DNA from: a virus | IMG/VR virus record: IMGVR_UViG_3300020281_000094 | Span: 1 to 29,986 of that record | Strand: one strand, 5' to 3' | Length of the DNA: 29,986 nucleotides | Shown: piece by piece, positions 5,313 to 27,122 of the stretch | How the letters are laid out: the number at the start of each line of letters is the position of its first letter | Position numbering within the stretch: position 1 is the first letter of the stretch | Translations under genes and position numbers: made by a program | Notes under the pieces: model-generated | Databases searched by the model: none | What the model saw: only the letters and a program-made list of their open reading frames with translations | Told to the model about the DNA's origin: nothing

Positions 5313-5327
5313 ATTAGTTGGGCTAAT
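5313..5327. promoter_or_regulatory. Palindromic operator copy, upstream of replication promoter
   Basis: ATTAGTTGGGCTAAT. Its centre is 37 bp from the operator inside the promoter at 5274-5302, and no -35/-10 pair surrounds it. It overlaps the stop codon of the VWA gene (5323-5325). An auxiliary site for cooperative binding is the simplest reading (inference). The same 15-mer occurs in reverse complement at 24422. Confidence 0.65.
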
Positions 5328-6465
5328 CAATTTTAGGGGGCATGTAGATAACGTCACCAAAGGGAACATTTGCACTCACATCGCGTTGATGGCAGCTTAC
5401 CCATAGCACAGGACACTGTGGTACGTCTTTTCCTCTGGGGTATATATTACATTCCATGTCGGTCAAATAGACGATAGCTTCGAGATCATGGGCGTTTTCA
5501 GCAAGCCAATGGAAGCCAGGGACGAAACTTGTACCACCTCCTCCACCTGCTTCGAACTTGTGTAACCGCAGATCATCTTCGGGTGTAAAAATTATTGGTG
5601 GCCTGTCTTCTGGGATTTGAGTATCGACCTGCACGAGATACAGTTTTTCGGGTCGTACTTGTTGCATGATGGCAACGATCTCACCCCAGAACTGTTCGAC
5701 ATGCTCGAACGTAGAACCAGAAACATCAATAATAATCCCGACGGGTCCACAGAGGTCGCTGTCAATTGACGGCAGATAGATGTCTTCGCCAATGTATCCA
5801 CGATTGGGCCGTCGCCAGTTGAACTCTTCACCGCCTCTGCTGGTAAAGAAAGGCCATAGTACAGAAGTCCAGTTAACCAGCGGCTTGAGTACGTTACCGA
5901 AGATACGTTCGATGTCGCCTGGAAGTTTGCCAGCCTCTTTTGCTTGCTGTAGTGCTTGGTTTATTTTGATGCGAACATTTGTTTCGAACTCGGCTGGATT
6001 AACCTTTGCTTCTGGTGGTAGGTCGTTTACTGCCCCCCAAGTAGGAACATCGTATTTCTCGCGCCAGTCGTCAGGTAGGTCGTTGTATATGTCATCAGCG
6101 GTCCATGTGCAGTCAGCGTATTTGTCATCCCATAGTTTGTCAGGTGGCAATTGAAAGCCGTACTTGATAACGATGGGGTTGATTGCCAAGTCACAAGCGA
6201 CATTCCATTTATCAGGATCGCGCCCATTACGCCTTATTGGATGCAATAACATAACGTGCAAAACTTCATGCACAAGGACACCGACTAGTAAAAGTTTGAA
6301 TAATCCAGCAACAAATTTCTCGTTATAGAACAGGGATTTACCGTCTGTTGCCATTGTTTTAATACGTTTTGAGTCGTGGATCAGTGCAAGACCTAGCAGT
6401 AACGTACCGAAGAACGGCTCGGTAAACAGCAGGTCGGACCTTGCACGGACAATGTGTTCATTCAT
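5323..6465 (-). CDS. VWA-domain metallopeptidase-like protein (DUF2201 type)
   Basis: A 380-aa, two-domain protein. The N-terminal putative metallopeptidase domain has HEVLH (66-70) followed by H75, and the typical WNVACDLAIN segment (87-96). The C-terminal von Willebrand A-like domain has a MIDAS: DVSGS (247-251), Thr in GGTSF (312) and Asp in LTDM (336). Such proteins are usually encoded beside MoxR AAA+ ATPases, and the pair is thought to act as a chaperone or remodelling machine on target proteins. Here MoxR lies one gene upstream. AAGGAG precedes the ATG by 8 nt. It is the last gene of the operon starting at 9838. All metal-binding residues seem intact; the substrate is unknown. Confidence 0.9.
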   Translation of the reverse strand: MNEHIVRARSDLLFTEPFFGTLLLGLALIHDSKRIKTMATDGKSLFYNEKFVAGLFKLLLVGVLVHEVLHVMLLHPIRRNGRDPDKWNVACDLAINPIVIKYGFQLPPDKLWDDKYADCTWTADDIYNDLPDDWREKYDVPTWGAVNDLPPEAKVNPAEFETNVRIKINQALQQAKEAGKLPGDIERIFGNVLKPLVNWTSVLWPFFTSRGGEEFNWRRPNRGYIGEDIYLPSIDSDLCGPVGIIIDVSGSTFEHVEQFWGEIVAIMQQVRPEKLYLVQVDTQIPEDRPPIIFTPEDDLRLHKFEAGGGGGTSFVPGFHWLAENAHDLEAIVYLTDMECNIYPRGKDVPQCPVLWVSCHQRDVSANVPFGDVIYMPPKID

Positions 6466-6477
6466 CCATTGTTCTCC

Positions 6478-7335
6478 TTATAGTGACGCTTTAACAGCAG
6501 TCTTGTTGAGGTTGTGCATGTCGATGTTTGCAAACACTTCTTCGCGTTGGGCAGTGTTGTTTGATCGTGTTGTTTTAGATGCGAGTTTTTCTTTCACGTT
6601 TTGAGGCAAGTATTTGTCTGCCCCAGGCCACTTATCCAGCAGTTGTTTTACTGAAGTACAAGCGCCTATTAATTTAGTAACTGTGCCTCGATATTCGCGT
6701 CTTGAAATTTCTCGTGTTTCTTTTGAGGTATTGTATTTTTGAACAAGTTTCTGCAATTTCTCAAAGCGTTTCCAAGACATACTGCACTCAAAAAGCAAAG
6801 AACCATTCATTGGGGCGCTCCAGTTTTTCTCAGTTTTTAGTAAGTATTTATTATGAACTTCGTTTGTATTAGTTGCGTTTGGATGAGAAAGTGCAAAATT
6901 TATTGGAAACGGGATAGCTTGATGGTCTTCAGTATTGCCGAAAAAATATAAGGTTTGGTTGTAATTTTCAGAATTACATTCTGTAGCAATGTTGATTTCG
7001 ATATTGTTAAACCAAGTGGTACAGCCTTCGAAACCTTCGAGATCATTTTTCTCTATTAAAGCATCTATATACTCACTCGCGTTTGAACCAGTGTAGTTGT
7101 AGTTCATCCAGTAATCGAAATCTGTATAGTTCTCTTCTTTAAATTGTGCAAACTTTTTCGCTAGTTTCCATTGCTCGCTGTCTTGTATATAGGGTGTTAC
7201 TTTTCTAGCGAGTTTTGAAAACAGTTTTGATGTTTCTTCTTTGTATTTTGATTTTGGATTAGCGTTGTCCCAATCAAGCAGACAACTAGCGATAATTTCA
7301 TCTCTGAGCATTTGTGACATTCGTACTGAAGCCAT
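6478..7335 (-). CDS. Unknown protein between MoxR and VWA genes (Nmad5-like features)
   Basis: A 285-aa protein. The start RMSQMLRDEI (5-14) and a C-terminal segment VKQLLDKWPGADKYLP (about 227-242) resemble the pattern I recall for Nmad5, a domain linked to phage nucleotide modification. The match is by eye and weak, and no catalytic motif is obvious. The centre is Asn/Tyr/Trp-rich. The gene is sandwiched between MoxR (18-nt gap) and VWA (12-nt gap), so the three are almost surely co-translated and may act together. It could be a substrate, adaptor or third subunit of the ATPase/VWA machine. Confidence 0.7.
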   Translation of the reverse strand: MASVRMSQMLRDEIIASCLLDWDNANPKSKYKEETSKLFSKLARKVTPYIQDSEQWKLAKKFAQFKEENYTDFDYWMNYNYTGSNASEYIDALIEKNDLEGFEGCTTWFNNIEINIATECNSENYNQTLYFFGNTEDHQAIPFPINFALSHPNATNTNEVHNKYLLKTEKNWSAPMNGSLLFECSMSWKRFEKLQKLVQKYNTSKETREISRREYRGTVTKLIGACTSVKQLLDKWPGADKYLPQNVKEKLASKTTRSNNTAQREEVFANIDMHNLNKTAVKASL

Positions 7336-7353: not shown

Positions 7354-8439
7354 TTAATTTAATATGCCAGCGTTTTTATCAATCCACTTCTCAACTACTT
7401 CGTGTTCTCTGTAGTCTTTATCCTTCTGGCAAAGGTCTTTGAAGTAGACAACTTGCATTTCTGTTTCTAGCTTTTTGATCCACTTACTTATGGACTTAAT
7501 TGTTTTGTCAGTAGTCTCGTTAATCAACGCACCAACTGTTGAGTACACAACTGACATTGAGTTAGGCACTGGTGTACCTTTTGGATCAGCAATAAGATCA
7601 TCCAGGTCAGGCATCTGTTTGGCATCTTTGCAGAACGCAATGAACTCACCTGCTGGTCCGTCACCAATCTTGGATGCTATTGCGTAGTGCATGAATCCAT
7701 CTGCTTCGGCTGGTGTCATGTCTTTGATTTCTTTCATCATCAAAGGCAAGCCGTGACCGATGTTTTCCCAAGTACGTGGTGTTGGGAATGCGTACTGAGT
7801 GTGATCTATTTGATGGCAAAGGTTGGGCTTGAAACGTAAGAATGAACAAACGTCTTCTGTTATCCCCTTGTTACGCAGATAATGAATACAATCTTCTGCT
7901 GAAGGCATTAGAGAGTAATGGTCAAACCTGTTCTTGAGTGCTGTTGGCATCTCGTTAGCACCTGTACGATCTTCTGCACGATTGCCACCTGCCAGTATTT
8001 GTGTATGTATTGGTAATGTGTATTGACCAATAGCTCCGTCGAGTGTTACTTGCAGAAAAGCATTCATGGTTGCACGGGTTGCTTGAGGTAGTTCGTCGAT
8101 AAGCAGTGCAACTTTTTCTGTCGTGTCTGATGGAGGTAAATCCTCTGGTGTGCCATAGACAGTGCGGTATGTGCCGTTATCTAATTCGATAATCTTAATA
8201 CCGCCACGCACATCGATAGGGTCATAAAGGTTTGCCCGCATTTCATACACTTTGTAGCCCGCAGTAGTTAGCTGTTGGTACATAATTTCTGATTTACCGA
8301 CTCCTGGTGGACCCCAGACCATCTGTGGTTTTTTCCTGTAGCCTTGGGCTTGTAGTTGCTCATTAGCTTTGATCTTGTAATGAAGCTGTTGCTCAAACTG
8401 CTTTGGTCGTATCTGTTGAATTTTGTCCATGTCCGTCAT
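7354..8439 (-). CDS. MoxR-type AAA+ ATPase
   Basis: A 361-aa ATPase. Walker A GPPGVGKS (43-50), Walker B LLIDEL (111-116), a sensor-1 Asn in GGNR (150-153) and an arginine-finger candidate ALKNRFD (166-172) are all present. MoxR proteins work with VWA-domain partners to mature or remodel other proteins. The partner here is the VWA metallopeptidase-like gene at 5323-6465. AGAGAGG precedes the ATG at 8439 by about 10 nt. The start lies inside the end of a 56-codon frame. Expected location is the cytoplasm. The ATPase call is firm; the cellular role is not known. Confidence 0.93.
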   Translation of the reverse strand: MTDMDKIQQIRPKQFEQQLHYKIKANEQLQAQGYRKKPQMVWGPPGVGKSEIMYQQLTTAGYKVYEMRANLYDPIDVRGGIKIIELDNGTYRTVYGTPEDLPPSDTTEKVALLIDELPQATRATMNAFLQVTLDGAIGQYTLPIHTQILAGGNRAEDRTGANEMPTALKNRFDHYSLMPSAEDCIHYLRNKGITEDVCSFLRFKPNLCHQIDHTQYAFPTPRTWENIGHGLPLMMKEIKDMTPAEADGFMHYAIASKIGDGPAGEFIAFCKDAKQMPDLDDLIADPKGTPVPNSMSVVYSTVGALINETTDKTIKSISKWIKKLETEMQVVYFKDLCQKDKDYREHEVVEKWIDKNAGILN

Positions 8440-18537: not shown

Positions 18538-19039
18538 CATTGATTCAGAAATGTCGGAGGCAGAGTTCAAATCACACTTGCCATATGCGGGTCTTAATTA
18601 TGGTTCGCTGACTGTGCAGCAGGAAAAGTTTGTCTTGTTACATGTCAGTGGCATGAGTCTCGCGGCAGCAGGTAGGGCAGCAGGTTATTCAACGCGAAGA
18701 CTGGCTTACGAAACGGCCAAGAAGCCCAATGTGCAAAAAGCCATTGAGTATTTTAGAGAGCAGATGCGCGAAGAAGTGAAATTCACAACAGCAAACGCTC
18801 ATCACATGTACATGGAGTCGTACACCGCAGCAGCAAATTCTACAGAAATGAGAACAACAGTTGATTCCCTGGTCAAACTGCATGGGTTGGCGCAACCGGA
18901 GCAGCAGACTCAGGTGAACATACAGATTAATGGTACAAAACAGCTCGAACGGATGACTGACGAAGACCTTCTTAAAATCGCTGGTAAGGATACAGAATAC
19001 TTGGAACCTAAAAGTACCAATGGAGATAGCGAAGGCTGA
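18494..19039 (+). CDS. terS: Terminase small subunit
   Basis: A 181-aa protein (from TTG 18494) that should recognise phage DNA and load the large terminase. LTVQQEKFVLLHVSGMSLAA (39-58) followed by AGRAAGYS and VQKAIEYFREQM is the classic helix-turn-helix start of small terminases. AAGGA precedes the TTG by about 10 nt; ATG at 18551 is an alternative start that would shorten it by 19 residues. It overlaps terL by 20 nt. Confidence 0.85.
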   Translation: MALHQSEEETLPSINIDSEMSEAEFKSHLPYAGLNYGSLTVQQEKFVLLHVSGMSLAAAGRAAGYSTRRLAYETAKKPNVQKAIEYFREQMREEVKFTTANAHHMYMESYTAAANSTEMRTTVDSLVKLHGLAQPEQQTQVNIQINGTKQLERMTDEDLLKIAGKDTEYLEPKSTNGDSEG

Positions 19040-20660
19040 GTGTAAGAGATGTAAAAATCTCTACAATGAAACTTTGGTCAACAGTAAGCGGTTGTGTGTG
19101 TATTGCAAAGCCGATGAAGTTGACAAGTTACCCTCGCCAGTTGTTAAAGAAGAAGTGCCAGTTGCCAAGAAATCCGAAGCGGATATGGCAAGAGAAGAAT
19201 TAGCACTTCGTATTCTCACACGTAAAAGATTACTCCCGTTTGTTGAAAGATTTAATCCTGAATATCTGGCAGGTTGGGTACATAAAGATGTATGTAAACG
19301 CCTGGAAGATTTTTCCCGTGCTGTTGTTGCTAAAGAATCTCCGAGGTTGATGCTGTTCTTGCCACCTCGACATGGCAAATCGACACTTGCCAGTATTGCT
19401 TTCCCTGCTTGGCACTTGGGACGTAACCCCGAACACGAGTTTATTAGCTGTTCTTATTCTGGCTCATTGGCAATGGGGTTCAGTAGAAAAGTGCGTAACC
19501 TGTTAAGAGAGCCTAGTTATAAAACGGCTTTTGATAAAACCCGCCTCGATCCTGAAAGCCAGAGTGCCGAAGCATGGCTGACTACGCAAGGTGGCGGATT
19601 TGTCGCGGCAGGTGTTGGTGGTGGTATTACAGGTAAAGGTGCTCACGTTTTAGTGATCGATGATCCGGTAAAAAACCGCGAGGATGCCGAATCGCAAAAC
19701 AACCGCGATGCCAATTGGGATTGGTATACGTCAACTGCCTACACACGTTTAGCCCCAGGTGGAGGAGTGCTTGTCATTCTGACGCGGTGGCACGATGACG
19801 ATCTGGCAGGTCGGTTATTAAAAGGTACTTCTGAAGGGGGTGACGAATGGGAAGTAGTTCGCTACCCCGCTATCGCTGAAGAGGAAGAAGAATTTAGAAA
19901 CTCTGGTGAAGCACTGCACCCAGAGCGTTATGACGTAAAAAGTTTAGATCGAATCAGAAAAGCAGTCGGGCCGCGAGACTGGTCTGCGCTGTATCAACAA
20001 AACCCTGTTGCAGATGACGGGGACTATTTTACCCGCACGATGATTAATTATTACCACGCGGAGGATGTTGATGAAGAACGACTCAGGTATTACCAAGCAT
20101 GGGATTTGGCAATCGGTCAGCGTGATCGCAATGACTATAGTGTGGGTATGTGTATCGGTGTTGATGAGCATGATCGTCTTTTTGTTATGGACGTTGTGCG
20201 CGGTCGCTATGACGGTTTCGAACTGGTTGAGCAGATTCTGGACTTTTATGAGCAGTGGAAGCCTTCGATCATAGGTATTGAAAAAGGTCACATCGAAATG
20301 GCACTTGGACCATTTTTAGAAAAACGTGTTCGAGAGAGGGGCTTGTACGAAGCCTATTTTAAAGATTTAAAGACAGGAAGGCGTGATAAAGAAGCAAGAG
20401 CGCGAGCGATACAGGGTCGTATGCAACAAGGGATGGTTTACCTTCCTAAAGATGCGCCTTGGGTCGGTCCACTGATAGCAGAACTTTTACGTTTCCCCAA
20501 TGGTACACATGACGATCAGGTTGATGCGTTAGCTTGGCTCGGTCTCATGATGACGGAGTTTGCTACTTATCAAGCTCCGATAATTAAAGAACCCAGTTGG
20601 CGAGATCGGCTTGTCGGTATGACACAAGGTGATCGACGCAAATCAGCGATGAGTGCATAA
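19020..20660 (+). CDS. terL: Terminase large subunit
   Basis: The 546-aa packaging motor. ATPase: Walker A LPPRHGKST (114-122), Walker B VLVIDDP (210-216), coupling motif LTRWH (254-258). Nuclease: D362 in AWDLAIG, E421 in GIEKG, and HDDQVDALAW (497-506). An N-terminal extension has C8/C11 and C26/C29, a zinc-ribbon-like unit not usual in this family. The rest fits the Terminase_6/P22-like group in length. Portal follows after 3 nt. Confidence 0.95.
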   Translation: MEIAKAECKRCKNLYNETLVNSKRLCVYCKADEVDKLPSPVVKEEVPVAKKSEADMAREELALRILTRKRLLPFVERFNPEYLAGWVHKDVCKRLEDFSRAVVAKESPRLMLFLPPRHGKSTLASIAFPAWHLGRNPEHEFISCSYSGSLAMGFSRKVRNLLREPSYKTAFDKTRLDPESQSAEAWLTTQGGGFVAAGVGGGITGKGAHVLVIDDPVKNREDAESQNNRDANWDWYTSTAYTRLAPGGGVLVILTRWHDDDLAGRLLKGTSEGGDEWEVVRYPAIAEEEEEFRNSGEALHPERYDVKSLDRIRKAVGPRDWSALYQQNPVADDGDYFTRTMINYYHAEDVDEERLRYYQAWDLAIGQRDRNDYSVGMCIGVDEHDRLFVMDVVRGRYDGFELVEQILDFYEQWKPSIIGIEKGHIEMALGPFLEKRVRERGLYEAYFKDLKTGRRDKEARARAIQGRMQQGMVYLPKDAPWVGPLIAELLRFPNGTHDDQVDALAWLGLMMTEFATYQAPIIKEPSWRDRLVGMTQGDRRKSAMSA

Positions 20661-20663
20661 ATT

Positions 20664-22793
20664 ATGGCCTATTCAAAATCGAAGAACCTAGCTCCAGAAA
20701 AAGAGATGCAAATTGCAGACACACAATGGCATCGGTACGTTCGTGCGCGGGATAACGGGCATACTGATTATATTGAGATGGCACGTAAATGTGACTCGTA
20801 TTATCGCGGGGAGCAATGGGATGCAAACGATATTGCAACCCTTGATGCAGAAGGTCGCCCTGCTCTGACTATTAATACTATTTTGCCTACAGTGAATACG
20901 GTATTGGGCGAGCAGTCATCGAGGCGAGCAGATATTCAGTTTAAACCCCGACGCGGTGGCGATCAGGAAACAGCAGACGTACTGACCAAGTTGTACTTGC
21001 AGATTGCAGACAACAACAAACTCGACTGGCTGGAGCAACAAGTATTTTCTGACGGTTTGATTATGGATGGCCGTGGATATTTTGATGTGCGGATTGATTT
21101 TACAGATCACACACAGGGCGAAGTGAGAATTACAGCGAAAGACCCCTGCGACATTTTGCTCGACCCTGATGCAAAAGATTATGACCCTGCTTCTTGGACA
21201 GAATTTTTTGAGACTCGGTGGATGACACTTGATGAGATTGAAGAGTTATACGGCAAGAAGCAAGCAGAGCGATTAACTTTTATTGCTGAGAACGGCAACT
21301 CTTATGGGCGCGATTCGATTGAATACGAAGAAACACGTTTTGGTGATGTCGATACACACGAAGAACATATCCCAGGCGATGACGAGTACAGGAAGGTTCG
21401 AGCGTTACGAGTTATTGAAAGGCAGCATAAAAAGATGTCGCGCTGCGATTATTATGTTGACCCACTGACTGGCGACCAAAGACCTGCACCTGCGAACTGG
21501 TCTGACCAGAAGAAGAAAAAATTTGGCAAACAGTACGGGCTAAGTTTAATTTCCAAAGTTGTTCCTAAAGTTCGATGGACTGTTACTTGCGATAAGGTAG
21601 TGCTGCATGATGATTGGTCGCCCTACCCTGAGTTTACGATTGTTCCTTATTTTGCTTACTTCCGTCGTGGCAGACCTTTCGGCATGGTACGCAACTTATT
21701 ATCTCCGCAAGAACAACTGAACAAAATTGCTTCTCAGGAATTGCATATTGTAAATACAACAGCAAACAGCGGCTGGATGGTTGAGTCCGGTTCGCTTGTT
21801 GGTATGACTCCTGATGACTTGGAAGAAAGTGGCGCACAGACTGGTTTGGTAGTTGAGTATGCCAGAGGTACTAATCCACCTACTAAGATACAGCCCAATA
21901 CAATTCCGACAGGTCTGGATCGTATTAGTCAGAAAGCAGCGGGAAATATCAAAGCTATTTCTGGCGTGAATGATTCAATGCTAGGTAGTGACGGACAGGA
22001 AGTTTCTGGTGTTGCGATCCAAGCAAAACAAAATCGTGGCGTTATCATGATTCAAGTGCCACTGGATAATTTGCGAAAAACCAGACATTACCTTGCTGAA
22101 AAAATATTACGATGCGTTCAGCAGTTCTATACCGAAGAGCGTCTTATACAAATTACAGACGAGACTGATCCGATGAAACCCCGCGAAGAATTACGCATCA
22201 ATGAGATGTCACCGGAAGGTCGCGTTATAAACGATCTGACTATTGGTGAATACGATGTGGTCGTAGCGACTGCTCCCGCACGGGATAGTTTTGATGAGGT
22301 TCAGTTTGCTGAAGCATTGAATCTAAGGCAGGTCGGTGTAGCGATCCCTGATGATGCCATTGTCGAATACAGTCATTTGACTAAGAAAGGTGAGCTTGCA
22401 AAACGCATACGCGAGCTAACTGGACAAGAGCCGCCTACTCCAGAACAGGCTGAAATGCTTGCAATGCAGAATCAGCTAGAAATGATGAACATACAGCTTG
22501 AGATTCAAAAGCTCGAAGCCGAAGTACAAAAACTCCAGTCTGAAGCTGCCCTGAATATGGCGAAGGCTACAGACACTGCCGAAGTGCAACCACAGCTACA
22601 GATTGCAGAAATACAATCTAAGCTGGCAATGAAGCAGCAAGAACTTGAGTTGAGAAGGGAACTTTCTGCAAACACCAATGAAATCCGCAAAGGACAATCG
22701 GATACTCAGGCCGCAACTAAGATTGCGTCAACTGCCATGCAAATGGCAAACAAGCAGCAAACTAATCCCCCCACTGATACAGGAGTCAACTAA
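20664..22793 (+). CDS. Portal protein (P22-type)
   Basis: A 709-aa protein forming the dodecameric vertex channel. The start region (SYYRGEQWDANDIATLDAEG, then RPALTINTILPTVNTVLGEQ around 68-87) and the downstream DILLDPDAKDYD segment are typical of P22-like portals. The C-terminus (about 600-690) is a long Gln/Glu-rich coiled coil (QLEIQKLEAEVQKLQSEAAL), the barrel region. Its stop shares a base with the next ATG (TAATG). Confidence 0.92.
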   Translation: MAYSKSKNLAPEKEMQIADTQWHRYVRARDNGHTDYIEMARKCDSYYRGEQWDANDIATLDAEGRPALTINTILPTVNTVLGEQSSRRADIQFKPRRGGDQETADVLTKLYLQIADNNKLDWLEQQVFSDGLIMDGRGYFDVRIDFTDHTQGEVRITAKDPCDILLDPDAKDYDPASWTEFFETRWMTLDEIEELYGKKQAERLTFIAENGNSYGRDSIEYEETRFGDVDTHEEHIPGDDEYRKVRALRVIERQHKKMSRCDYYVDPLTGDQRPAPANWSDQKKKKFGKQYGLSLISKVVPKVRWTVTCDKVVLHDDWSPYPEFTIVPYFAYFRRGRPFGMVRNLLSPQEQLNKIASQELHIVNTTANSGWMVESGSLVGMTPDDLEESGAQTGLVVEYARGTNPPTKIQPNTIPTGLDRISQKAAGNIKAISGVNDSMLGSDGQEVSGVAIQAKQNRGVIMIQVPLDNLRKTRHYLAEKILRCVQQFYTEERLIQITDETDPMKPREELRINEMSPEGRVINDLTIGEYDVVVATAPARDSFDEVQFAEALNLRQVGVAIPDDAIVEYSHLTKKGELAKRIRELTGQEPPTPEQAEMLAMQNQLEMMNIQLEIQKLEAEVQKLQSEAALNMAKATDTAEVQPQLQIAEIQSKLAMKQQELELRRELSANTNEIRKGQSDTQAATKIASTAMQMANKQQTNPPTDTGVN

Positions 22794-23863
22794 TGGCTAA
22801 GAAAGAAGCTGAGAAAGAAGAACTACAATTCGAAAGGATGCCAGGGTCTGAAGAGATGGAGCAACCTGAAAACATAGACTTGAATTTTGGTCTTGGTGAA
22901 GAGACTGAAGTAGAGCAGCCCCAAGAAGAACAGCAAACTCAAGAGGTCACTGAGGATGCTGTTGTAGAAGAAGAACCTGCTGAAGAAACTACTCAAGAAA
23001 CGGAGGAAGTTAGTGCTGAATCTGAGGAACCTGCTGAGACCCAAGAAGAACAACAGGAAGAAACAGTTGCCGAGCAGCCTGAAGAGGCAGAACCTGCTCA
23101 AGAAGAAGTACAAGCTAAAGAGCCAGAGCAACCTAAGAAACCAATGGTTCCTAAAACACGGTTAGATGAAGTCCTTCAAAAGAACAAAGCTATGCAAAAA
23201 GAGCTTGAAGAACTTAAAGCAAAGGAACAAGCACCAAAAGAAGCACCTAAATACGATTTTGATGCCGAAGAAGTCAAACTTCAGAACTTAATCTTGGACG
23301 GACAGGCTGAAGCGGCTGCAAAAAAACGAGCCGAGATACGTGCAGCCGAGCGTGAGCAGATTACTTTTGAAGTTGAGCAGAAAATGCGCCAAGAAATAAC
23401 TATGTCTAACCAACAAAACGCAATATTGGACGCAAGTAAGCAGATCGAGGCCGAATTTCCTGTATTTGACCAGAATTCCGAGCACTATAACGAGCAATTA
23501 ACGAACGAAGTTGTCGATTTGGCCGAGGCTTTGGGCTTAAAAGGCTACGATGGCGCAGATGCTATGCACAAAGCGGTGAAATACGTGGTTGCAGAGCATA
23601 ATTTAGCAGCCCCTGCCCCTGAACCTACGCAACAAACTCCATCTGCACCTAAAAAAGCGCAACCCGCAGTTGATGAAGTGGCTAAAAAACGTAGTGAGGT
23701 TGCTAAAAAGCTCAAAACTGCCGAACAGCAACCACCTAATCTCCCTGGCGAAAGCAGTTCAGCGCATGGGGAGCAACCTTTGGACATTAGCAACATGTCT
23801 GAAGAAGAGTTCAATGCCCTACCCCCTGCCACAATAGCCCGATTACGAGGAGATGTTTTGTAA
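22793..23863 (+). CDS. Scaffolding protein (probable)
   Basis: A 356-aa protein placed between portal and capsid. Residues 1-120 are extremely Glu/Gln-rich (QEEQQTQEV repeats), followed by Pro/Lys, a coiled coil (LDEVLQKNKAMQKELEELKA, about 125-145) and a C-terminal part with another charged helix. Composition, length and position fit a head assembly scaffold, which rarely shows sequence similarity. The function is inferred, not shown by a motif. Confidence 0.75.
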   Translation: MAKKEAEKEELQFERMPGSEEMEQPENIDLNFGLGEETEVEQPQEEQQTQEVTEDAVVEEEPAEETTQETEEVSAESEEPAETQEEQQEETVAEQPEEAEPAQEEVQAKEPEQPKKPMVPKTRLDEVLQKNKAMQKELEELKAKEQAPKEAPKYDFDAEEVKLQNLILDGQAEAAAKKRAEIRAAEREQITFEVEQKMRQEITMSNQQNAILDASKQIEAEFPVFDQNSEHYNEQLTNEVVDLAEALGLKGYDGADAMHKAVKYVVAEHNLAAPAPEPTQQTPSAPKKAQPAVDEVAKKRSEVAKKLKTAEQQPPNLPGESSSAHGEQPLDISNMSEEEFNALPPATIARLRGDVL

Positions 23864-24147
23864 TGACTAGGAAAAAAGACCCACGATTGGAAAGAGCAGG
23901 TGTTTCGGGCTACAACAAGCCAAAAAGAACACCTAACCATCCGACAAAAAGCCACGTTGTAGTTGCTAAATGCGATGGCAAAGTTAAAACCATTCGTTTT
24001 GGGCAGCAAGGTGTAAAAGGGGCAGGTAAAAATCCTTCTAGCGCATCAGAAAAAGCAAGGCGTAAGTCTTTTAAGGCTCGACACGCTAAGAACATTGCAA
24101 AAGGGAAATGTTCGGCTGCGTATTGGGCCAATAAGGTCAAATGGTAA
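23863..24147 (+). CDS. Small basic protein of phage head module
   Basis: A 94-aa, highly basic protein ending with SEKARRKSFKARHAKNIAKG and AAYWANKVKW. I recall this K/R-rich RRKSFKARH...YW...KW ending from proteins next to phage head genes, with no firm function. It starts within the scaffold stop (TAATG). A DNA-binding or head-associated role is plausible. Confidence 0.75.
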   Translation: MTRKKDPRLERAGVSGYNKPKRTPNHPTKSHVVVAKCDGKVKTIRFGQQGVKGAGKNPSSASEKARRKSFKARHAKNIAKGKCSAAYWANKVKW

Positions 24148-24659: not shown

Positions 24660-25811
24660 ATGGCTTTAACGAATTTTGCATCGTTAACCAGTAATCAGTT
24701 AACTGCATGGAGCCGTGACTTCTGGCGTGTTGCTAGAAATATGAGCTTTATTAATCAGTTTGCTGGCACTGGTTCTAACGCTATGGTTCAAAGAATCACT
24801 GACTTAACTAAGTCTGATAAAGGAACCAAAGCAGTCATCACATTGCTTGCTGATATGACAGGTGATGGTATCACTGGGGATAACACCCTAGAGGGTAACG
24901 AAGAAGCACTTCGTGCCTACGATATCACCATCGAGCTAGATCAGCTTAGATTTGCTAACAGAATCGCTGGTCGTTTAGCCGATCAAAAATCTGTTGTAAA
25001 TTTCCGTGAAAATTCTCGTGACGCTCTTGCTTATGCAATGGCAGATCGAATGGATCAACTTGCCTTCTTAACATTGGCGGGTCTTGCATATACAAACAAG
25101 ACTAACGGTGCGTTGAGAACTACTTCAGCTACAACAGGTCACGAGCTTGTTGATTTGGAGTTTGCTTCTGACGTTTCAACTCCAACTACTAATCGTCACC
25201 GTCGTTATGACGCAGGTACAACAAGTCTTGTCGCAGGTGACACTACTGCTGTTGACTCTGCGGATACGATTAACTACAGAGCGATTGTCGAGTTGAAAGC
25301 GTATGCCAAGGATAACTATATCCGAGGTATTCGCAGCGCTGGCAATGAAGAAGTGTTCCATCTGTTTGTTACTCCACAACAAATGGCTGATCTCAAGCTA
25401 GATTCAGATTTCCTAGCGAACGTGAGAAACGCAGGTGTTCGTGGACCAAGCAACCAGTTGTTTGCAGGTTCATCTTCACTGATGGTAGATGGCGTGATGG
25501 TACATGAGTTCCGTCATGTTTTCTCAACCGAAGGCGCAACTTCTGGAACTAGCACAAACGCTGGTTCTGCGGGTTACAAGTGGGGCGCAAATGCTGACCA
25601 AGACGGTGGAAGAGCACTGTTCTGCGGAGCGCAAGCTCTAGCAATGGCCGACATTGGCAACCCAGAAGTAGTTGAAGAGACTTTTGACTATGGAAACCAA
25701 TCTGGTATTTCCATAGGCAAGATTTTCGGTCTACGGAAGCCTAAGTACAACAGTGACCATAACGGTTCCACTGAAGACTTTGGTGTAATCTGCTTAGACA
25801 CTGCTGTTTAA
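24660..25811 (+). CDS. Major capsid protein (N4-gp56 / DUF4043-like)
   Basis: A 383-aa protein. DNTLEGNEEAL, then RFANRIAGRLADQKSVVNFR and DALAYAMADRMDQLAFLTLA, follow the N4-gp56/DUF4043 capsid pattern, and the length fits. It has GGAGG before the ATG, its own strong promoter and a terminator just after the stop, giving a mainly monocistronic, abundant transcript. Position after scaffold supports the call. Confidence 0.88.
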   Translation: MALTNFASLTSNQLTAWSRDFWRVARNMSFINQFAGTGSNAMVQRITDLTKSDKGTKAVITLLADMTGDGITGDNTLEGNEEALRAYDITIELDQLRFANRIAGRLADQKSVVNFRENSRDALAYAMADRMDQLAFLTLAGLAYTNKTNGALRTTSATTGHELVDLEFASDVSTPTTNRHRRYDAGTTSLVAGDTTAVDSADTINYRAIVELKAYAKDNYIRGIRSAGNEEVFHLFVTPQQMADLKLDSDFLANVRNAGVRGPSNQLFAGSSSLMVDGVMVHEFRHVFSTEGATSGTSTNAGSAGYKWGANADQDGGRALFCGAQALAMADIGNPEVVEETFDYGNQSGISIGKIFGLRKPKYNSDHNGSTEDFGVICLDTAV

Positions 25812-25821
25812 GTAAAGTAGT

Positions 25822-25868
25822 AACCCCCTCCCTCCCTCCTGACTCCTGGGGAGGGTGTGGGGTTTTTT
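25822..25868 (+). terminator. Intrinsic terminator after capsid gene
   Basis: AACCCC...GGGGTT with inner CCTCCC/GGGAGG pairing, followed by six T (25863-25868). It lies 10 nt after the capsid stop and 23 nt before the pqqA-like gene, so downstream genes depend on read-through or a separate promoter that is not visible. Confidence 0.82.
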
Positions 25869-25890
25869 AAATTTACGAGAGGACAAAGTT

Positions 25891-25962
25891 ATGTGGACAA
25901 AACCTACATTCGAAAACGTAAGACTTGGCTTTGAAATCACTATGTATTTCAGCAATAGGTAA
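25891..25962 (+). CDS. pqqA: PqqA-like PQQ precursor peptide
   Basis: A 23-codon gene with a good ribosome-binding site (AGAGGACAAAGTT). The peptide begins MWTKP and has [10 protein letters not shown] at residues 11-20. This is the pattern of PqqA, the ribosomal peptide from which PqqE (with PqqD) and later PqqB/F, PqqC make the cofactor pyrroloquinoline quinone. The Glu and Tyr that are cross-linked are in the required E-x-x-x-Y spacing (E15, Y19), and the length is typical for bacterial PqqA (about 23-24). Similarity to Pseudomonas-type PqqA covers nearly the whole peptide. No pqqB, C, D or E is in the window, so host enzymes would have to process it. It lies in the virion operon right after the capsid terminator. 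Confidence 0.88.
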
Positions 25963-25968
25963 ATCTTT

Positions 25969-26415
25969 ATGAAAATAATCTCAGATAAAAACCTCCGCGT
26001 GGCAACAACCTGGGGAGCTGTAGTTGTTTTGGAAGCGGGAAAAGAAAGGGAACTGAGTGAAGAAATTGGACTTCTGGCATTACAACAAGGCGCAAAAGAA
26101 GTTGGCGCGAAGAGTAAAAAAGAATCAGTGAAGATTGAAGAGACTACACTGGTATCCATACGAGCAAGAAATGAAGACGGTCACTTTATTGCCGACGATC
26201 CTTCGACACCAGATGTAGATGAAGCATTTGTTGAAGTAGCAGTTGGCGATGTTACAGAAGTAGTTGTGGCTATTGAAAAACTTGTGTCGGATGGCGATCC
26301 CGCTAACTTTAAAAAGAATGGTGAACCAAAAGCAGCAGCTATTAACAGCGCGGTTGGCCGAACAGTAGCACCGGAAGAACGCACTAAAGCGTGGGATCAA
26401 GTTATTAATGGTTAG
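25969..26415 (+). CDS. Phage structural-module protein, unknown, 148 aa
   Basis: It starts MKIISDKNLRVATTWGAVVV, with LEAGKERELSEEI next, and ends with a helical part (FKKNGEPKAAAINSAVGRTV, then EERTKAWDQV) that may be a small DNA- or protein-binding domain. I recall this two-part pattern following DUF4043-type capsids in phages, probably a head or head-tail component. It starts 6 nt after the pqqA stop and may be co-translated. Confidence 0.7.
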   Translation: MKIISDKNLRVATTWGAVVVLEAGKERELSEEIGLLALQQGAKEVGAKSKKESVKIEETTLVSIRARNEDGHFIADDPSTPDVDEAFVEVAVGDVTEVVVAIEKLVSDGDPANFKKNGEPKAAAINSAVGRTVAPEERTKAWDQVING

Positions 26416-26423
26416 GTAAAGCA

Positions 26424-27122
26424 ATGGCGACTTCGGTTCAAAGTATAGTAGATAAAGCTCAGATAATTTTACAGGACACATCTGCTATACGATGGCCTGA
26501 GTCTGAACTTGTTAGTTGGGTAAATGATGCTCAACGGGCAATCGTTCTTATCAAACCTGATGCTAGTGCTACGAATGAGACAGTTACTTTAGCAACTGGT
26601 ACTAAGCAGTCCATCCCATCGGGGGGTAATAGACTTCTTAGTGTTATTCGTAATATGAGTGCAGCCAGTGCGGGTAATGGTGGTAGAACTATCCGTATTG
26701 TTGATAAGGAAGTTCTTGATGCACAAGCACCTAGTTGGCATGACCCTGCCGCAACTGGTCTATCAAAGCATGGTACGACGGTTAAACATTATGTCTATGA
26801 AGAAAGTGATCCACGTACTTTTTATGTTTATCCAGGTGTTGCTGGTAATGCTTATTGTGAGATTGTCTACAGTGCAAACCCTGCCGCAGTTACCATAAGT
26901 GATGATATAGGTTTACCAGACATCTATTCTGTTGCAATCATGAATTACGTTGTTTACATGGCGTACATGAAAGACGCAGATTTTGCAGGGCATCAACAGC
27001 GAGCAGCTTCGCATTTTCAATTGTTCATGACTTCAGTAAGTGGTAAGTCGCAGTTAGACATACTGACTTCTCCAAATAGTGAACGCCCCGATCCGACTTT
27101 AAATCCAATGATGGGTAATTAA
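26424..27122 (+). CDS. Head-tail adaptor-like protein (DUF6682-like), 232 aa
   Basis: The N-terminus, IVDKAQIILQDTSAIRWPES, followed by WVNDAQRAIVLIKPDA and GTKQSIPSGGNRLLSVIRNM, is the pattern I know as DUF6682, found next to portal/capsid modules in podovirus-like phages. An adaptor or stopper role at the portal is likely (inference). It is followed after 2 nt by another connector-like gene. Confidence 0.78.
   Translation: MATSVQSIVDKAQIILQDTSAIRWPESELVSWVNDAQRAIVLIKPDASATNETVTLATGTKQSIPSGGNRLLSVIRNMSAASAGNGGRTIRIVDKEVLDAQAPSWHDPAATGLSKHGTTVKHYVYEESDPRTFYVYPGVAGNAYCEIVYSANPAAVTISDDIGLPDIYSVAIMNYVVYMAYMKDADFAGHQQRAASHFQLFMTSVSGKSQLDILTSPNSERPDPTLNPMMGN

Follow-up and report, generated by a model that had tools for sequence, protein, structure and literature searches.

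The stretch of DNA analysed here, referred to as the window, is the whole 29,986 bases of the IMG/VR record IMGVR_UViG_3300020281_000094, a linear viral record that represents an incomplete stretch of a marine bacterial virus, a KPP25-like phage. Between its virion genes lies pqqA, a 23-codon gene predicted to encode the precursor peptide of the redox cofactor pyrroloquinoline quinone (PQQ). The gene is located 3′ of a hairpin that follows the capsid gene and 6 bases 5′ of the next gene, in a region that is arranged as follows:

19020..20660, plus strand: terminase large subunit (phrog_38)
20664..22793, plus strand: portal protein (phrog_156)
24660..25811, plus strand: major capsid protein gene of the N4gp56/KPP25-like type, upstream of pqqA (phrog_334 major head protein, E 1.3e-85)
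25822..25868, plus strand: GC-rich hairpin followed by a U run, terminator-like, 3′ of the capsid gene (-25.9 kcal/mol, z -2.07)
25874..25890, plus strand: ribosome-binding site region of pqqA, acGAGAGGAcaaagtt before the ATG
25891..25962, plus strand: pqqA, PQQ precursor peptide of 23 aa (above the cut-offs of PF08042 and TIGR02107; under purifying selection as judged from codon changes)
25969..26415, plus strand: 148-aa protein downstream of pqqA with no assigned function (weak match to phrog_2498)
26424..27122, plus strand: SU10-type adaptor or virion structural protein

The gene begins with an ATG at 25891 and ends with a TAA at 25960-25962, and a GAGAGGA motif is situated 7-8 nt 5′ of the start codon. 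A sequence-only reading of this DNA had proposed a 23-codon gene with a good ribosome-binding site that encodes PqqA, and both parts of this proposal hold. The peptide matches the Pfam family PF08042 (E 2.7e-10, 40.4 bits against a cut-off of 21.1) and, over the full model length, the NCBIfam equivalog TIGR02107 (E 3.4e-13, 49 bits against a cut-off of 20), and its E15 and Y19 have the E-x-x-x-Y spacing of the glutamate and tyrosine that are cross-linked by PqqE. It belongs to the gammaproteobacterial type of PqqA, with which it shares its length, the MWTKP start, the R-x-G-F-E-x-T-M-Y core and the N-R end, and it is 70-74% identical to its best cellular matches, found in sampled Gammaproteobacteria and Motiliproteus. 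Unlike the bacterial genes, however, it is phage-encoded, stands alone and is not placed 5′ of pqqB. Across all six frames of the window the core motif G[FLMIV]E[VIA]TxY is present a single time, and 200 shuffled versions of the sequence lack it altogether; together with the model scores and the selection described below this rules out a chance open reading frame, while cellular contamination is ruled out by the virion genes that flank pqqA in several independent contigs. On its sequence the gene is thus a genuine phage-encoded pqqA and, being a cellular metabolic gene flanked by viral capsid and adaptor genes, a candidate auxiliary metabolic gene. PHROGs contains no family for the peptide and the PDB no sequence match. 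A different radical-SAM (S-adenosylmethionine) enzyme could in principle turn the peptide into another product, or the peptide could act unmodified, which is compatible with its sequence; since the model matched over its full length is specific for PQQ, this is considered highly improbable.

The position occupied by pqqA is a variable slot. The capsid hairpin, which was not listed by a simple terminator scan because its predicted loop is 10 nt, is found in the same position in most capsid relatives. Among the best 80 capsid relatives, it is followed by a bare ribosome site (as in L124, with 91% capsid identity), by other genes that are unrelated to pqqA and in some cases small and basic, or by pqqA (L122, L123, L177 and L178). 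A search by peptide type located pqqA in the same slot in L284, L291, L294, L303 and L304 as well. As the contents of the slot differ among capsid relatives, pqqA is regarded as its cargo.

Comparisons within this slot indicate that purifying selection acts on the peptide. L291 encodes exactly the window peptide although 8 of the 23 codons differ, so that all eight changes are synonymous, and the stop codon is different too. At the DNA level the 3′ part of the capsid gene is 89% identical between the two and the downstream gene about 51%. The silent share of single changes in pqqA under no selection would be 18-23%, which gives a P of about 1e-6 to 9e-6 for L291. L304 adds one further silent change, and in L177 and L178, with about 70% capsid DNA identity, the ratio of nonsynonymous to synonymous substitution rates is about 0.15-0.2. 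E15 and Y19 are retained even where the search did not require them, namely in the capsid-anchored L177 and L178 and in cultured phages recovered by tblastn. The degenerate DNA patterns used to collect further viral genes demand several residues, E15 and Y19 among them. Part of the conservation seen in their matches is thereby built in, and the case for selection therefore rests on L177/L178, L291 and the tblastn matches. The two checks suggested by the sequence-only reading, namely conservation in related phages and a search for the gene at the same locus, accordingly came out in its favour, as independent contigs have pqqA at one and the same position and differ in it by synonymous changes.

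No other gene of the pathway was found with the phage pqqA, as had also been supposed from the sequence. Models of PqqB, PqqC, PqqD and PqqE found no full relative in the window record (G000, a fragment), in G001 or in the 51-kb pqqA-bearing relative G002, nor in six pqqA phage records, of which five belong to cultured methylophages, nor in the further IMG/VR records tested, most viral records being fragments. A complete biosynthesis locus, in which one genome combines pqqB, pqqC, pqqD and pqqE, was found in none of G000, G001, G002 and the other phage records searched. Two large phage records gave weak matches to the PqqE model (22-28 bits against a cut-off of 381 bits), which are of a generic radical-SAM kind. 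All four models were matched in the positive control, W07, a pqq operon of Acinetobacter that is catalogued under a phage name. This control stems from "Acinetobacter phage MD-2021a", which was dropped as a pqqA phage: its record CAKLQF020000010.1, which contains ppk and an entire pqqBCDE operon, seems to be misfiled Acinetobacter chromosomal DNA. A second record of the same name, CAKLQH020000055.1, is likewise filed as phage and has a pqqA match.

Viral pqqA genes are scattered through many unrelated viruses and are mostly unannotated. A degenerate DNA pattern matched at least 120 viral stretches and a narrower pattern for the window peptide type matched 62; both patterns and the cultured phages together yield at least 161 distinct viral pqqA loci with at least 72 distinct peptides. 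Among the matches listed, the neighbouring genes fall into at least 59 families upstream and at least 71 downstream, and a Shine-Dalgarno-like motif is located 5′ of 157 of the 161 genes. A tblastn search of a phage collection identified pqqA in nine records of cultured methylophages, those of Venkman, four Melnitz phages, MEP301, MEP401, MEP402 and P19250A (MT375522.1, MZ577095-MZ577098, MW452941.1, OP830906-OP830907 and KX815270.1), a count that concerns carriers and makes no claim for all methylophages. In none of the nine records is the site labelled pqqA; it is either unannotated or called as an unrelated hypothetical protein, which bears out the remark in the sequence-only reading that such tiny genes are easily missed by automatic annotation. 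The annotations of Melnitz-1 and of the metagenome-assembled MW202481.1 place a hypothetical protein antisense to pqqA and overlapping it, and the genome papers for Venkman, Melnitz, MEP301 and MEP401/402 name no phage pqq gene. The window also encodes, at 23863-24147 on the plus strand, a 94-aa phrog_7595 protein whose relatives occur near pqqA in the otherwise different phages L018, L025, L062, L071 and L081. Viral pqqA might be a mere passenger that is gained by recombination and expressed but inconsequential for infection, as would suit its patchy presence among close relatives and a slot that also holds unrelated small genes. The eight synonymous changes out of eight in L291 and the recurrence of the gene in at least 59 neighbour contexts and nine methylophage records make this improbable.

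In seven large-phage loci (L007, L265, L272, L297, L309, L319 and L229) a pqqA of the window peptide type is situated 3′ of one or two genes for proteins of about 410-430 aa, in tandem where there are two, and in five of the seven it starts 11-13 bases past the stop codon of its neighbour. The neighbour proteins appear to carry a signal sequence and have a CxxCH haem motif as well as conserved histidines. They have no PHROG, NCBIfam or above-cut-off Pfam family, but show weak Pfam matches, below the cut-offs, to cytochrome c and to a copper type II monooxygenase domain (Cu2_monoox_C). A structure model of low confidence (predicted local distance difference test score, pLDDT, of 50) has as its best 29 PDB matches peptidylglycine monooxygenase (PHM) or dopamine beta-hydroxylase, in agreement with these weak sequence matches. 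As far as the model can be trusted, the gene group fits a periplasmic redox cassette and hence a role of pqqA in periplasmic redox metabolism. One of the seven, L229 (G014:C57), is a 335-kb contig in the metagenome-assembled genome (MAG) PBPT01, which is labelled Neomarinimicrobiota in GTDB. Besides pqqA it encodes PhoH, ThyX, clamp loader-like, ClpA/B-like, DnaJ and lysozyme-like proteins; these phage-type genes suggest that it is a large phage which was assigned to a bacterial bin, and its pqqA was dropped as a cellular copy. It has further been considered that additional PQQ, whether released or recaptured, would shut the importer of PQQ, PqqU, and thereby exclude other phages. No link of the window phage or the methylophages to PqqU was found and the large phages pair pqqA with oxidoreductases instead, which leaves this a very unlikely explanation.

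In the PQQ pathway, PqqE together with PqqD links a glutamate and a tyrosine of PqqA, the peptide is then trimmed, and PqqB and PqqC complete the cofactor. PqqA is the only component that is spent one-for-one per PQQ, whereas the enzymes are reused. The reading preferred here, to which a probability of roughly 0.7 is assigned, is that the phage supplies PqqA alone and that the host enzymes PqqB to PqqE make PQQ from it, keeping up or raising the PQQ supply during infection. As cargo of the capsid-gene region, PqqA would be made late in infection and converted to PQQ by the PqqE/PqqD, proteases, PqqB and PqqC of the host; because PqqA is consumed and the enzymes are not, a 72-base gene would be the cheapest route to such a supply. 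The added PQQ would keep periplasmic quinoprotein dehydrogenases for methanol, glucose and other alcohols charged, and these may in turn sustain respiration while virions are produced. Phage pqqA would then act like the stand-alone copies that bacteria add when PQQ demand is high. Several sampled gammaproteobacterial genomes contain 2-9 pqqA copies each, and in one of the sampled gammaproteobacteria (G190) nine pqqA-like copies are scattered over the genome. A PQQ-producing methylotroph has five copies, three of them stand-alone, of which pqqA1 and pqqA3 are the most expressed and one of these two is stand-alone (PMC9851590). Overexpression of pqqAB in Acetobacter raised PQQ by 29% (PMC7936290). 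Pelagic Methylophilaceae oxidise methanol by XoxF and MOX-PQQ is among their mapped metabolic modules (PMC6794327).

The sequence-only reading had offered three roles, namely a raised PQQ supply, a decoy and a redirection of PqqE/PqqD. The first is favoured here, short of proof, because E15 and Y19 are retained, the cultured carriers infect methylotrophs and pqqA is paired with secreted oxidoreductase genes in some large phages. The other two fare less well. A peptide that occupies the PqqD and PqqE of the host, lowering PQQ synthesis or diverting the radical-SAM chemistry, would account for a substrate encoded alone, a surplus of which could titrate PqqD. Such a decoy would nevertheless have no need of E15 and Y19, yet both are kept along with R11, G13 and F14; bacteria tolerate extra and productive pqqA copies (PMC9851590), and the PHM-type genes beside pqqA in large phages point to a supporting role in redox metabolism. 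It is therefore rated as quite unlikely.

Several observations nonetheless count against a role in PQQ supply. Only 4 of the best 80 capsid matches carry pqqA, so that the gene is found in a minority of close relatives. No gene for a PQQ-dependent alcohol dehydrogenase (TIGR03075) was detected in 30 pqqA phage records. In Acetobacter the whole operon increased PQQ eightfold and pqqAB only 1.3-fold (PMC7936290), and by analogy more pqqA alone may give little PQQ. Furthermore, the host of the window phage was not found through capsid relatives in the genomes examined, and the order of the TMED226 MAG, tested since a relative's contig was binned there, has pqqA in just 1 of 199 genomes, for which reason it is an unlikely host. 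The MAGs in which the capsid relatives occur have mutually conflicting labels, namely Gammaproteobacteria (TMED226), Verrucomicrobiales and Neomarinimicrobiota; the relatives resemble viral contigs that were co-binned, and binning is weak host evidence. Motiliproteus, the source of a capsid relative with 56% identity, has both pqqE and pqqA, while the MAGs with nearer capsid relatives do not. The window capsid is 54% identical to those of the Pseudomonas phages KPP25 and phiR18.

The leftward genes of the window include those for DNA polymerase A, a MoxR-type ATPase and a VWA/metallopeptidase protein. In the early region the latter (DUF2201; 5323-6465, minus strand) lies two genes away from the ATPase (phrog_1297; 7354-8439, minus strand), and an Nmad5 nucleotide-modification-associated protein is encoded in the interval at 6478-7335.

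The first report of a viral PqqA dates from 2020 and concerns methylophages of Lake Baikal that also encode methanol dehydrogenase (PMC7678222), and the window gene is consequently less novel than the sequence-only reading had rated it. Like the window phage, the Baikal methylophage population VP_266 has a viral pqqA, which was proposed as an auxiliary metabolic gene, but it is T4-like, assigned to Methylophilaceae and encodes methanol dehydrogenase (PMC7678222), whereas the window phage is KPP25-like and no PQQ alcohol dehydrogenase gene (TIGR03075) was found in it. Venkman, Melnitz, MEP301, MEP401, MEP402 and P19250A likewise have a stand-alone pqqA with its own Shine-Dalgarno sequence, although their peptide is of the RFGFEVTMYV type and they represent other phage families and loci. 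The stand-alone pqqA genes of methylotrophic bacteria are also located away from pqqBCDE but are chromosomal (PMC9851590). A 2026 reservoir study lists virus-encoded pqqA, pqqD and pqqE (PMC13188868). New, as far as the literature consulted shows, are the location in the capsid slot of KPP25-like phages, the evidence for selection, the unannotated copies in cultured methylophages, the wide range of contexts and the neighbours of PHM type.

It is tentatively suggested, as a possibility short of an even chance, that phages of PQQ-dependent bacteria generally follow a strategy of PqqA supply, which was gained many times, and that in some large marine phages pqqA and the secreted cytochrome c/copper-monooxygenase genes make up an operon, through which these phages would run a periplasmic oxidation module with PqqA as its cofactor arm. 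In surface water, a large flux of carbon passes through the PQQ-dependent oxidation of methanol and sugars. If phages do feed the PQQ pathway through an overlooked 72-base gene, their hold on methylotrophy would be wider than thought, and as pqqA is present in cultured phage-host pairs such as Venkman and strain H5P1, the question is directly testable.
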